Below are positions 14,141 to 19,786 of a DNA stretch of 31,094 nucleotides, piece after piece. The DNA comes from a virus: positions 1-31,094 of IMG/VR virus record IMGVR_UViG_3300020595_000129. One strand, given 5' to 3'. The notes under the pieces were generated by a model, which made no database searches, was not told where the DNA came from, and saw only the letters and a list, made by a program, of their open reading frames with translations. Position 1 is the first letter of the stretch, and every line of letters starts with the position of its first letter. The translations under genes and the position numbers were made by a program.

Positions 14141-14333
14141 TCAAAACTGCTTTTCAAAATTGCACAGAGTTGTCAGAGAGTTTGGAATGGTAAAGGTATT
14201 GGAGGTGCTTCCCACTTTCTTCACTGCTAAAGAGCCATCGAAGGACTACAAAGACATGCGTAAGAAACTTGAGGAAGCTAGCGAGCTTTATAAAAAGGAG
14301 CGTACTATTTATATAGATGAAAGTATTACTTGA
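14124..14333 (+). CDS. small helical protein, unknown
   Basis: A 69-residue protein (LHRVVREFGMVKVLEVLPTF, then charged helices). It overlaps the kinase-like gene by 17 nt, suggesting translational coupling. The block VREFG..KVLEVL recalls small phage proteins, but I cannot name the family. Confidence 0.55.
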   Translation: MPSTPSQNCFSKLHRVVREFGMVKVLEVLPTFFTAKEPSKDYKDMRKKLEEASELYKKERTIYIDESIT

Positions 14334-15433: not shown

Positions 15434-17175
15434 CCAAGTTTCAGGACAAATGGCGCACGTTTTTGAGCGAAGAGCAGATCGAGGAAAAGACTCGCGCTGA
15501 AAAAGAGGGAGTTAAACTGCCCTCCACCGCTGAACAACTTGAAAAATACGTGGCCAAAGACTTTAAGAGTCCTGAATACTATATGCAGTTCAGCGATGTT
15601 AACAAGCTGGGCATCAATCCAAAGTCTGGCTACAGTACGCCCCTCGGTATCTATTCTTATCCAATAACCAAGCAGCTTTATCGCCTGTTCATTGCCGGCA
15701 AACTTCCGTTCGCCCAAGGTAGAAAGTACATTATTGTATTCAAGCCAAACGAGGATAAGAACATCGTTCTTTCTCTGGGAAAGAGGAACGACGGCGGCAT
15801 TGATAGCAAGACTTTCGAAGAGATGCTTGAAAAACTCCTCAGTAAAGAAGTGTCCGATGGTAAGGTTAACCGTGGTGTATACCATGCTTATCGCAGGCAC
15901 ACGCAAGGGCAGGGCTTCAAAGCTGATGAAATACTCAAATTAACAAATGGGTTTATTAGGAAAGACAACTTTATAAATAAGGTTTACCGCAACAAAGCTG
16001 TTTCGTTTTTTGCTCGCCTTGCAGCAGATGAGTTCTTGAACGAGAAGCCTTACGGGAAAGCCCTCTCGTATGACAAGATGCTTGACAAGTTTATGAAAAA
16101 CAACAGCTACGCCATGAAGGATGGCTACTTTAAAACAGGCGCACAGAACTTAGAAAAAGAGGACTTTACAGAAGAAGACTATAACAATTTCATCTACTAT
16201 CTAGACGCTCAGGACTTGAGCCCTAAAGAGTCCGCTGAACTCCGACTCAAGGAGCTTGTTGCCGACAAAGGATACAACCCTAATAGTCCCCTCGAAGCCC
16301 TCGAAGCCACAGAATATTGGCAGGAATTAAAAAAAGATGCTCGCAGCAAAACCAACCTCGGCTTACTCTGGTATCTTAGCTTTAAACTCCAAGACGGCAA
16401 CCCTCGCGTTTGGAGAACTCTTTTTCAAAATGTGTTGGGCATTGACGGAGTTGTCGATGTTGCAGGCGAAGGGCTCATTCACCCATCGGAAAAGATCCAA
16501 GCTGTGTTCTTTTCCAAAGACGTGGTTGAGCAGGTTGCAACCATTAGAAACACCGAAACACCAGAAGCAATCAGCCGTCGCCAAGAGTATCGAACAAAAG
16601 AATCAATTCAACGCCGTGCTACCGAGTTCTATGTTGACGCCCTTGGGATAAAACCGAGTAGCAAGATGCTAGAATCTGCACTCACAGCCCTAAAGAAAGC
16701 TCAGGAAACCAACGCCTGGAAAATAGATGGAGCAAATAATTTTGATGCTTTTGTTAGCTGGCTTTTTGGAAAGGATCTATTCCCACCTTCTTCGATTCCA
16801 GGCGAGTTTGATAACGCATCCAAACTTACAAAAACGGTTTATGAAAATACAAAGAAAGAAAGCCTTGATCAATTCCACAGGATTTTAACAGAGAAATGGA
16901 TAGATGATTACTTCACCGGCACCATCGGTGAAAAGCACACCGACGCAAGAAGTGCGGCTTATGAAACTACGGAACCATTACAGACCCAGTTGATTATGGA
17001 GGCACAAGCTCTTCGCCGCGAAGCGGCTGATTTTAGCAATCAAGTAGAAGATAGCTTGAAAGAAGGCGAGATCTCCCCGAAAGAAGTAAGAGAAAGAATA
17101 GTCAAAGGACTAAAAGAATACGCTGAAGCGTTTGACGTTATTGTCAAAACAGCCCAAAGGGCAGAAAAAGCTTGA
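15430..17175 (+). CDS. large phage protein, possible internal virion protein
   Basis: A 581-residue soluble protein from GTG 15430 with GAGGAG upstream. The N-terminus MTKFQDKWRTFLSEE resembles the tags at 14317 and 19061. Early motif: INPKSGYSTPLGIYSYPI (about 57-74), remembered from other marine phage proteins. Centre: WRTLFQNVLGIDGVVDVAGEGLIHPSEKIQAVFFS. The C-terminus is a long charged helix. No catalytic family is certain; ADP-ribosyltransferase-like activity is conceivable but unproven. Its stop TGA lies in the -35 box of the next promoter. Confidence 0.75.
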   Translation: MTKFQDKWRTFLSEEQIEEKTRAEKEGVKLPSTAEQLEKYVAKDFKSPEYYMQFSDVNKLGINPKSGYSTPLGIYSYPITKQLYRLFIAGKLPFAQGRKYIIVFKPNEDKNIVLSLGKRNDGGIDSKTFEEMLEKLLSKEVSDGKVNRGVYHAYRRHTQGQGFKADEILKLTNGFIRKDNFINKVYRNKAVSFFARLAADEFLNEKPYGKALSYDKMLDKFMKNNSYAMKDGYFKTGAQNLEKEDFTEEDYNNFIYYLDAQDLSPKESAELRLKELVADKGYNPNSPLEALEATEYWQELKKDARSKTNLGLLWYLSFKLQDGNPRVWRTLFQNVLGIDGVVDVAGEGLIHPSEKIQAVFFSKDVVEQVATIRNTETPEAISRRQEYRTKESIQRRATEFYVDALGIKPSSKMLESALTALKKAQETNAWKIDGANNFDAFVSWLFGKDLFPPSSIPGEFDNASKLTKTVYENTKKESLDQFHRILTEKWIDDYFTGTIGEKHTDARSAAYETTEPLQTQLIMEAQALRREAADFSNQVEDSLKEGEISPKEVRERIVKGLKEYAEAFDVIVKTAQRAEKA

Positions 17176-17199
17176 TTTCTTGTGCTCGTTTAGTATAAT
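17172..17199 (+). promoter_or_regulatory. promoter of the truncated uvdE copy
   Basis: TTGATT (17172-17177), 16 bp, TATAAT (17194-17199). It contains the stop of the upstream gene and lies 6 nt before an ATG, the same layout as the uvdE promoter at 17857. Confidence 0.78.
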
Positions 17200-17205
17200 A
17201 GGCTT

Positions 17206-17232
17206 ATGAACAATCTAGGTTATGCTTGTTGA
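17206..17232 (+). pseudogene. truncated copy of the uvdE start (MNNLGYAC-stop)
   Basis: Eight codons and a TGA. The peptide matches the first eight residues of UvdE at 17892 except Pro to Ala. The first 14 nt are identical (ATGAACAATCTAGG), then third-position changes appear. The stop lies within the left arm of the HNH leader hairpin. It may be a remnant from cassette insertion or a functional leader peptide. Confidence 0.75.
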
Positions 17233-17273
17233 AAAACTCCTGTAAAGACTATTTATAGTAGGAGGTTTTTCAA
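17229..17273 (+). promoter_or_regulatory. hairpin sequestering the HNH ribosome binding site
   Basis: The left arm 17229-17241 pairs with 17260-17273 as 13 bp with a single bulged G; the loop is 18 nt. The right arm contains the AGGAGG (17260-17265) and the A of the HNH start codon. Similar masking is known for T4 homing endonuclease mRNAs such as I-TevI. Confidence 0.75.
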
Positions 17274-17860
17274 TGAAAGCTAAACTATGCTCACACTGCA
17301 AAGAAGAAAAAACGATAGATAACTTCTACAAGAAAAGCGGTAGAGAAAATCAATGGCAGTCTTACTGCAAGTCTTGTCATCTAAAGCGCTGCAATGAGGC
17401 ACGAAACAAAAATCCAAATGCGAAAAGACGCGGGAAGAAAAATTGGAAAGAATGGTCCTCAAAAGAAGAGAATAAAATAAAAAGAAAAGATTACCAAAAG
17501 AGATATTACGCTAAAAGAAGCAAGCAAGACCCATTTTATAAACTTAAACTAAGGATGGGTAGTTGGGTATTGCACTCAATAAAAAGTAACAATGGAATTA
17601 AAGAGGGCAGTGTTTGGAAGTATTTACCATATACATCAGCACAATTAAAAGAACATCTAGAAAGTCAGTTTGAAGATTGGATGACATGGGAAAACCACGG
17701 AAACGGCAAAGGTTGTTGGAATGTAGATCATATTTATCCTCAATCTCTTTTACCTTACGATAGTTTAGAGCATCCAAACTTTCAAAAATGCTGGGCTTTA
17801 GATAACCTACAGCCTCTATGCGCTATTGAAAATTTAAGAAAATCTAATAAAATAACTTGA
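17273..17860 (+). CDS. HNH homing-type endonuclease
   Basis: A 195-residue nuclease. The N-terminus has a zinc-ribbon-like set (C6, C9, C32, C35; CSHCKEEK ... YCKSC). The middle is very basic. The C-terminus holds the HNH motif CWNVDHIYPQS (His153), then HPNFQKCWALDNLQPLC and ENLRKSNK. AGGAGG is 7 nt before the ATG but paired in a hairpin. The codons are AT-rich compared with neighbours (many aaa/aat). It sits between two copies of the uvdE start, as expected for a mobile free-standing endonuclease gene. It would nick or cut DNA at an allele lacking the cassette. Its stop lies within the next -35 box. Confidence 0.93.
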   Translation: MKAKLCSHCKEEKTIDNFYKKSGRENQWQSYCKSCHLKRCNEARNKNPNAKRRGKKNWKEWSSKEENKIKRKDYQKRYYAKRSKQDPFYKLKLRMGSWVLHSIKSNNGIKEGSVWKYLPYTSAQLKEHLESQFEDWMTWENHGNGKGCWNVDHIYPQSLLPYDSLEHPNFQKCWALDNLQPLCAIENLRKSNKIT

Positions 17861-17885
17861 ATTCCATCAATAAGGTTGCTATAAT
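17857..17885 (+). promoter_or_regulatory. promoter of uvdE
   Basis: TTGAAT (17857-17862), 17 bp, TATAAT (17880-17885). It overlaps the HNH stop codon. The uvdE ATG is 6 nt after the -10 box, so its A would be the +1 base of a leaderless mRNA. Confidence 0.8.
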
Positions 17886-17891
17886 AAGACT

Positions 17892-18833
17892 ATGAACAAT
17901 CTAGGCTATCCATGCATCAATATGCAGTTGTCTTACCCAACTCAATGGGGTGACCAACCGCGAGGGACCGAGCGCATTACTACTAATCGCTCTATGATTA
18001 AACGGACCTATCAAGCTAAGGGTGTTAAGTATGCTTCAGAGTTAAGCCTGCTTAATGTTCAGGACTTGGAGCGCATCATCGATTGGAATGAAGCCAATGA
18101 CATAAAGTTCTATCGCATGTCCTCTGACGTATTCCCCTGGGCTTCTGAGCACGGCATCGAAAGTCTTCCAGACTATGATCAGATATGTAAGATCCTTAAA
18201 CGCTGCGGCGACAAAGCCACAAAGTACGGGCAACGCATTACAACGCACCCTGGTCCTTTCAACAAACTAACCTCCCCCAGGGAGCAGGTTGTTCTCAATA
18301 CTATCAAGGACCTTGAGATACACGGTCAAGTCTTTGATCTTATGGGATTACCCCGCACGCCTTATGCCAAAATCAATATCCACGTAGGAGCACACTACAA
18401 TGATAAATCGCTTGCTCTTGGAAACTTCTGTCGTAACTTTGATCGTCTTAGCCCTTCTGTACAGCATAGGCTCACAGTTGAGAACGATGACAAAGCGTCT
18501 CTTTACTCTACTAAAGAGTTGTGTGAGGAAGTTTATTCGCGTATTGGTATTCCCGTTGTCCACGACTTTCACCACCATACGTTTTGTACTGGCGAAGTTG
18601 ATCAAGAAGAGGCGCTAACAATGGCGGCTATGACTTGGGGCGATGTAACTCCTGTGACACACTATTCACAGTCAAGGTCAGTAGAGCACAATGACCCCAA
18701 GATCAAACCACAGGCACACTCGGACTCTTACTGGGAGCCTGTCAATACCTATGGCTTACCAGTTGATGTTATGTTAGAGTGCAAGCACAAAGAGATTGGT
18801 CTGTACAAGATGCAAAAGCTATTGAAGGAGTAG
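17892..18833 (+). CDS. uvdE: UV damage endonuclease UvdE
   Basis: A 313-residue TIM-barrel nuclease that nicks DNA 5' to UV photoproducts and other lesions. Family motifs: N-terminal LGYPCINMQL, FYRMSSDVFPWASE, ITTHPGPFN, INIHVGAHYNDK, LTVENDDK (metal-binding Glu), PVVHDFHHHTF, and VTHYSQSRS. These supply the His/Glu/Asp cluster for two or three metal ions. Length equals typical bacterial UvdE. It gives the phage a light-independent repair route. No Shine-Dalgarno; the start is leaderless by promoter position. Confidence 0.93.
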   Translation: MNNLGYPCINMQLSYPTQWGDQPRGTERITTNRSMIKRTYQAKGVKYASELSLLNVQDLERIIDWNEANDIKFYRMSSDVFPWASEHGIESLPDYDQICKILKRCGDKATKYGQRITTHPGPFNKLTSPREQVVLNTIKDLEIHGQVFDLMGLPRTPYAKINIHVGAHYNDKSLALGNFCRNFDRLSPSVQHRLTVENDDKASLYSTKELCEEVYSRIGIPVVHDFHHHTFCTGEVDQEEALTMAAMTWGDVTPVTHYSQSRSVEHNDPKIKPQAHSDSYWEPVNTYGLPVDVMLECKHKEIGLYKMQKLLKE

Positions 18834-18842
18834 GACTAAACT

Positions 18843-19052
18843 ATGTATAAGTTGCACAACGGGTGCTACATCAGACCCGAAGAGATTACTGCTTTGTGGT
18901 CGGAGAGTTACAGCGACCCCAAGCTGGATAGCGCTTGTTATCTCGTTAGGGCATTTCTCAAAAACAACTCGACAATCTTAACTCTTGGTAGGTTTGATGA
19001 AAAGTATGAGGCAGATCAAGTAATTAAGGAAATTAACGAAGAAACAAACTAA
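18843..19052 (+). CDS. small protein, unknown
   Basis: A 69-residue protein (MYKLHNGCYIRPEEITALWS, then strand-helix units ending VIKEINEETN). AAGGAGTAGG precedes the ATG by about 8 nt. It lies 9 nt after uvdE, so is probably in the same transcript. The strand pattern recalls small phage 'host-like' regulators, but no family is named. Confidence 0.6.
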   Translation: MYKLHNGCYIRPEEITALWSESYSDPKLDSACYLVRAFLKNNSTILTLGRFDEKYEADQVIKEINEETN

Positions 19053-19060
19053 TTATAGTT

Positions 19061-19786
19061 ATGAAAATTATACTTGAAAATTGGAGAAAATACCTCGGTG
19101 AATCAAAGGCGAAGGTCAGCGACGCAATGTCCGAGGTTGCCTTCAATACAATGTCTGCCGAGTCTGTTTTTGACGGAGCAGTCACCGAAGCAGAAGGTCA
19201 GTTTGTTTATCAAGTAAGCCTAGCTAAAGAGCCCAGCAAGGAAGTGATTACAAGGTTCAACGAATCTTTGTATGGAGGTAAGAGAGCAGGATTTATGAGC
19301 GCTTACTCGATAGAGGAACTCTCTCGTATGGACTTGTACCTATTGGATGGACACAACGCAGGCTTCGCCATTAAAGATGGCGATGATATTGTGAGTGTGC
19401 ATAATAATTCTGATTTACGTGGACTAGGAAGCGAGTTCATGAGAAAGGCTAAAGAAGTCGGAGGCAAAAGGCTAGACCACTTCGATGGCTTTTTAAGCGG
19501 ACTATACAGAAAATATGGCTTCACTGATGTATATGAGATTTACCAGTGGGACGAGCAATATAAACCTGAAAAGTGGACGTACACTCCAGTGGACGCTTTA
19601 AATCCAAAAACGAGCGTATATGCTGACAGCTTGAAGGATATGATCTACGACAACCCAGGCACCCTGCCGAATGAAGCTGTAGAAGCAGAAGCAGAGGATT
19701 CTTTTGCTGTCACAATCAATCCTAAATTGAAGTTCAACAGCTATAAGTACGGTCGCCCAGATGTCATAATGAGAAAATTAGGTTAG
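19061..19786 (+). CDS. GNAT-like fold protein with N-terminal ENWR tag
   Basis: A 241-residue protein. The first residues MKIILENWRKYLGES match the kinase-like protein's start. The centre (about 90-155) has DLYLLDGHNAGFAIKDGDDIVSV, then a Gly-rich turn LRGLGSEFMRKAKEVG and LDHFDGFLSGLYRKYGFTDV, the shape of a GNAT acetyltransferase acetyl-CoA site (R/Q-x-x-G-x-G/A replaced by LRGLGSEF) and its final strand. A virion-packaged acetyltransferase is possible. The last 60 residues are acidic and unfamiliar. The start follows AATTATAGTT, a poor ribosome site. Confidence 0.7.
   Translation: MKIILENWRKYLGESKAKVSDAMSEVAFNTMSAESVFDGAVTEAEGQFVYQVSLAKEPSKEVITRFNESLYGGKRAGFMSAYSIEELSRMDLYLLDGHNAGFAIKDGDDIVSVHNNSDLRGLGSEFMRKAKEVGGKRLDHFDGFLSGLYRKYGFTDVYEIYQWDEQYKPEKWTYTPVDALNPKTSVYADSLKDMIYDNPGTLPNEAVEAEAEDSFAVTINPKLKFNSYKYGRPDVIMRKLG

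Follow-up and report, generated by a model that had tools for sequence, protein, structure and literature searches.

The window, the whole 31,094-nt stretch of viral DNA analysed here (IMG/VR record IMGVR_UViG_3300020595_000129), belongs to a marine-type phage and carries an HNH gene that has a uvdE remnant on one side and, on the other, a complete uvdE served by a separate promoter (Table 1). The −35 box of that promoter overlaps the HNH stop codon, and the intact uvdE is 86–89% identical to those of HNH-less relatives. The HNH gene is a separate open reading frame with its own start and stop, lies outside any intron or intein, and is accompanied by no intron family in an Rfam scan. The residues of its DH...N...N motif (DH/N/N/K) are invariant; the protein had no Pfam match above the cut-off, neither sequence nor fold comparison gave a significant match in the PDB, and its structure model was weak (pTM 0.46; best PDB match Hpy99I, E 2.2). 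The gene is a candidate free-standing homing endonuclease.

Table 1 Features of the uvdE–HNH locus in window coordinates
Feature	Position	Strand	Basis
Sigma-70-like promoter TTGATT-16-TATAAT of displaced uvdE 5' end	17172..17199	+	Unlike uvdE promoters of close relatives
Stranded uvdE 5' end, MNNLGYAC then stop TGA	17206..17232	+	24-nt match to start of intact uvdE at 17892
Predicted RNA hairpin burying HNH Shine-Dalgarno and start codon	17226–17276	+	Folding
Left junction of inserted cassette, directly 3' of the Cys codon in Gly-Tyr-Ala-Cys	17229..17230	+	Same codon position across four lineages
Late-type promoter motif ACTATTTAT inside hairpin loop	17248..17256	+	Strand bias, position 5' of structural genes
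Shine-Dalgarno AGGAGG of HNH gene	17260..17265	+	
HNH / endonuclease VII-like homing-type endonuclease, 195 aa, N-terminal Cys4 motif	17273..17860	+	PHROG endonuclease VII, E 1.7e-15
Promoter TTGAAT-17-TATAAT of intact uvdE	17857..17885	+	Matches uvdE promoters of HNH-less L001, L003, L004
Intact uvdE (UV damage endonuclease), MNNLGYPCINMQ..., 313 aa	17892..18833	+	Pfam UvdE, 7.9e-54

The initial annotation had described an eight-codon leader peptide starting 6 nt past a TATAAT box, and both elements are present where it placed them (TATAAT at 17194–17199). It overlooked two features, namely that the eight codons repeat those that open the intact uvdE and that a late-type motif lies in the loop of the hairpin that follows. 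A degenerate uvdE-start pattern has exactly two matches in the window (17206 and 17892), with 0.05 expected by chance; by sequence, what had been taken for a leader is the beginning of a uvdE allele that was displaced and left stranded. The 6-nt spacing between −10 box and ATG is a frequent layout of uvdE promoters in this phage group. It occurs in L001, L003, L004, L013, L015, L017 and L022 as well as at the intact gene of the window (17880–17892), and predicts that early uvdE mRNA would be leaderless.

Probable insertion of the endonuclease gene into uvdE

All loci compared here are metagenomic contigs, among which L081–083 are near-identical; the HNH relatives were recovered from viral contigs. 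The left junction GGN-TAY-GCN-TGY, encoding Gly-Tyr-Ala-Cys, is common to the window, L081–083, L084/L251 and L070/L237, the last being a fourth lineage whose L070 was found by a uvdE scan. Remnants of the same kind are present in L081, L084 and L070, and in L081–083 and L084 the HNH gene is flanked by a uvdE remnant ending at Gly-Tyr-Ala-Cys and by a complete uvdE. The HNH-less L001, L003 and L004 have an uninterrupted uvdE reading MKNLGYAC-INMQLSYP, so that a single site is empty in these three loci and L240 and occupied in the window, L081, L084 and L070. By this comparison, the HNH gene entered uvdE at codon 8/9 (Gly-Tyr-Ala-Cys | Ile-Asn), an event that stranded the original promoter and eight codons upstream; downstream lie a second promoter and a complete uvdE, through which the repair function is presumably retained. 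We regard this insertion history as very probable.

Identity values and allele structure were assessed at the occupied loci. The HNH gene of the window is 72% identical to that of L081–083, while the adjacent uvdE is 57% identical to that of L081; the corresponding values are 63% and 54% for L070, and 66% for both genes in L084, where HNH is without excess conservation. In L251, which covers the L084 locus at greater length, identity of the upstream fragment is 90% to HNH-less L039/L036 and 83% to L240, and the downstream uvdE is 94% identical to that of HNH-less L240 in DNA and 99% in protein. The two 5' ends match different relatives, and L251 therefore joins two alleles. The window itself has a downstream promoter and gene that match L001–L004 and an upstream promoter that does not. 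We infer that this mosaic pattern would follow if a recipient allele had been broken at codon 8/9 and then mended with a donor copy bearing HNH and uvdE.

The remnant peptides (MNNLGYAC, MKNYGYACLKHFF, MIMPINYGYACIKC and MTNYRLGYAC) comprise 8, 13, 14 and 10 codons, with stops at codons 9, 14, 15 and 11 that differ in every relative. The resident motif of the HNH-bearing uvdE genes is GYPC in the window and L070 and GYACIC in L081 and L084, with deviants in 2 of 71 endonuclease-less genes (Fisher 1.5e-4, covering the window, L081 and L084, with endonuclease-less counts tallied by hand and loci that are interdependent); L070 was possibly recruited to this comparison through its GYPC pattern. 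A link between the altered GYAC-IN motif and immunity of HNH-bearing uvdE is only suggestive, and immunity by this route was rejected as a candidate explanation after targeted scans recovered the same variants in HNH-less uvdE genes.

Endonuclease genes also lie elsewhere around uvdE. In L085 the insertion coincides with the start codon of uvdE and part of the promoter is duplicated (34/36 identical), and in L086 and L088 the HNH gene is directly 3' of uvdE. A short open reading frame of about 50 codons precedes the HNH gene in these loci (L085:1382–1530, L086:2853–3001, L088:2853–2995) and looks like a small ribbon-helix-helix-like DNA-binding protein. A different endonuclease with a Cys4 motif and a GIY-YIG domain is situated directly 3' of uvdE at L042:2808–3365 and in L040, L043 and L078; uvdE therefore attracts several endonuclease families. 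In L070 (1296–2245), the 3' end of the upstream gene has received a GIY-YIG endonuclease gene (1436–2197), 3' of which lies a displaced copy of the upstream gene's final codons (GGPITENEASFKWHKKNKDA-stop), and this 3'-end duplication adjoins the 5'-end duplication of uvdE.

A predicted hairpin over the HNH start

Positions 17229–17241 are predicted to pair with 17260–17273, which include AGGAGG and the A of the start codon, leaving a single bulged G at 17264, and the hairpin is located as the initial annotation had proposed. The fold of 17226–17280 has a minimum free energy of −15.8 kcal/mol (z −3.8), equalled by none of 200 dinucleotide shuffles. Raw stability of this order is commonplace in the window, being reached by 228 of 6208 plus-strand 55-nt segments (~3.7%); the local fold at the HNH start codon is the strongest among the 43 gene starts (−16.0), and burial of its Shine-Dalgarno ranks 6th of 43.

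Folding also predicts hairpins that mask the Shine-Dalgarno or start codon in L081 (z −4.8) and L070 (z −2.8), with different arm sequences, and no stable hairpin at the L084 leader (z +0.2) despite its HNH insertion. Comparison of the leader among related phages, suggested in the initial annotation as a check, thus recovered the hairpin in two lineages and not in the third, with neither leader length nor stop position kept. RNAalifold found no consensus structure for three leaders aligned with MAFFT, as that alignment is sequence-based and the arms are unlike in sequence. By prediction, the HNH ribosome-binding site is masked in transcripts from the upstream promoter, following the scheme of I-TevI, SegB and Aeh1 mobE.

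A late-type motif within the hairpin loop

The motif ACTATTTAT forms the invariant core of the aligned leaders of the window, L081 and L070, whereas the hairpin arms differ; in L084 it is shifted to ACTATTTAC. Across four large relatives, the pattern ACTAWTTATW occurred 12, 8, 12 and 14 times in forward orientation (46 in all) and 1, 0, 0 and 2 times in reverse (3), compared with 8 forward and 8 reverse matches for a reversed control pattern. It was located 5' of structural-type genes, including one for tail sheath (L142, by PHROG match), and an ATG followed exactly 4 nt past the motif in 8 of 40 fetched cases, as against 1.8% of random positions. Within the window, ACTATTTAT at 14304 precedes a gene at 14317 and ACTAATTAT at 19048 precedes a gene at 19061. 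From this distribution, we infer that ACTAWTTATW/ACTATTTAT is a late promoter element of the phage group. The T4 late box TATAAATA was not found on the coding strand here and occurs only on the opposite strand.

At 14304 and 19048 of the window and in L116–L155, ACTATTTAT or ACTAATTAT is often exactly 4 nt 5' of an ATG, suggesting that late mRNAs may be leaderless. Several of the genes 3' of these motifs start with M-K-x-L-L-E-N-W.

Control of the endonuclease gene

Transcripts from the upstream uvdE promoter would include the left arm and are predicted to fold the HNH ribosome site away, while the late-type promoter in the loop would yield an mRNA that lacks the left arm and leaves the site free. 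The endonuclease would then be made mainly late, as are T4 I-TevI, SegB and Aeh1 mobE, an expectation that draws on the motif and on precedent. Modelled Shine-Dalgarno accessibility rose from early to late transcript in the window (0.21 to 0.69), L081 (0.02 to 0.81) and L070 (0.32 to 0.88), where the late transcript was assumed to start 5 nt past the motif with T4-like spacing. Against a switch of this kind, L084 carries the insertion yet has no stable hairpin and a shifted motif; moreover, if the remnant is well translated, its ribosomes would unfold the hairpin in early transcripts and undercut repression there. We favour the late-promoter scheme because ACTATTTAT is invariant in the loop, strand-biased and found before structural genes, and consider the switch itself somewhat probable. 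Taken as a whole, insertion, masking hairpin and late promoter together are the explanation that we judge best, with confidence modestly above even.

The initial annotation had instead proposed a lock opened by its own leader peptide. The lock is supported, as a predicted hairpin that recurs in two further lineages, but the key is not, the leader being a displaced uvdE 5' end. Under that proposal, ribosomes initiating on the stranded uvdE start would cover the left arm when they reach the stop, and HNH translation would be coupled to the remnant. The remnant does retain a promoter and start codon, and its stop is situated beyond the left arm in L081, and within that arm or immediately 5' of it in the window and L070. 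Placing a ribosome at the stop lifts predicted Shine-Dalgarno accessibility from 0.21 to 0.51 in the window, from 0.02 to 0.85 in L081 and from 0.32 to 0.76 in L070, and release by the leader is therefore physically possible. We nevertheless consider it unlikely, given that leader length and stop vary among relatives, that neither a shared stall sequence nor a stop position conserved relative to the hairpin, as in attenuation-type leaders, was found across the four leaders, and that L084 has a remnant with no hairpin to open. Insertion history alone accounts for the remnant, for which a function is needless, and the late-type motif in the loop already offers a simpler opener with precedent. 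It is also rather improbable that the stranded start has been co-opted, such that remnant translation opens the hairpin and gives an early burst of endonuclease besides the late one.

Alternatively, the hairpin could act mainly as an intrinsic terminator of low strength, or as an insulator, and restrict transcription from the uvdE promoter into HNH, comparable to the terminator inside T4 mobE, where termination is about 30% (PMC2988022). Its right arm ends in GTTTTTC in the window, and similar T runs are present in L081 and L070, but a terminator scan of the window did not report this hairpin, the T run is short and lies within the stem, and the overlap of stem and start codon better suits masking of the ribosome-binding site; we consider this role quite improbable. 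A low probability likewise attaches to the hairpin being a chance by-product of an AT-rich junction with no regulatory role. The frequency of comparably stable 55-nt segments (about 3.7%) and the absence of a hairpin in L084 are consistent with chance, which is harder to reconcile with a local fold stronger than at any other of the 43 gene starts, its z score of −3.8 and counterparts built from other arms in L081 and L070. It is extremely improbable that the insert is spliced out as an intron or skipped by translational bypass to join MNNLGYAC to INMQ: the remnant does end precisely where the intact gene continues with Ile-Asn, but the downstream uvdE is self-sufficient, with a promoter, a start and the full eight codons, the L251 5' ends come from different alleles, and the complete second 5' end together with the Rfam scan speaks against an intron, IStron or bypass.

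Comparison with known systems

The favoured reading is of a late-expressed endonuclease whose gene entered uvdE and has its start masked by a hairpin, and its ingredients are already known: free-standing phage endonucleases, hairpins that mask ribosome-binding sites and enclose a late promoter, and, in fungal mitochondria, gene ends duplicated next to mobile endonuclease ORFs. Relative to the literature searched, what is new is their combination in a phage, the duplication of a promoter and 5' end, and a late motif other than that of T4; nothing on uvsE with homing endonucleases was found in that literature. Uninterrupted, occupied and mosaic alleles form a natural series in which an endonuclease would break a gene at a conserved codon and the phage would keep a working copy, here thanks to a new promoter and 5' end, whether brought along or gained. 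The series indicates GYAC|IN of uvdE as a candidate cut site. The locus also suggests that masking of an endonuclease ribosome-binding site, with a late promoter in the hairpin, extends to phages beyond the T4/Aeh1 group, where another late motif is used.

Among free-standing phage endonucleases, F-CphI has psbA as its target. F-CphI of cyanophage S-PM2 is a homing endonuclease related to endonuclease VII (PMC6083498), and the HNH gene described here resembles it as a free-standing, endonuclease VII-related phage enzyme, a likeness of class. In I-TevI, segB and Aeh1 mobE, a hairpin masks the ribosome-binding site in upstream transcripts and a late promoter yields unmasked mRNA (PMC2988022). 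The window is similar in its predicted masking of the endonuclease ribosome-binding site and in a late-type motif placed such that the transcript would lack the left arm, and it shares with mobE, also an HNH gene, the insertion in a host gene. It differs from the T4 and Aeh1 systems in its motif (ACTATTTAT here, TATAAATA there), in its host gene, uvdE, and in the absence of an intron; unlike nrdA, which is split in Aeh1, uvdE remains entire owing to an additional promoter and 5' end. Mobile endonuclease ORFs inserted in the fungal mitochondrial genes atp6, atp9, cox2 and nad3 (Allomyces, Glomus) come with a second copy of a gene end, derived from another allele, by which the gene stays functional (PMC3630166), and the mosaic 5' ends of L251 and the window likewise show a duplicated host-gene end of foreign allelic origin. 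Whereas the fungal elements encode LAGLIDADG or GIY-YIG proteins and duplicate the C-terminal end, the phage element encodes an HNH/EndoVII-type protein and duplicates the promoter and N-terminal end instead of the C-terminal one, in mirror image.
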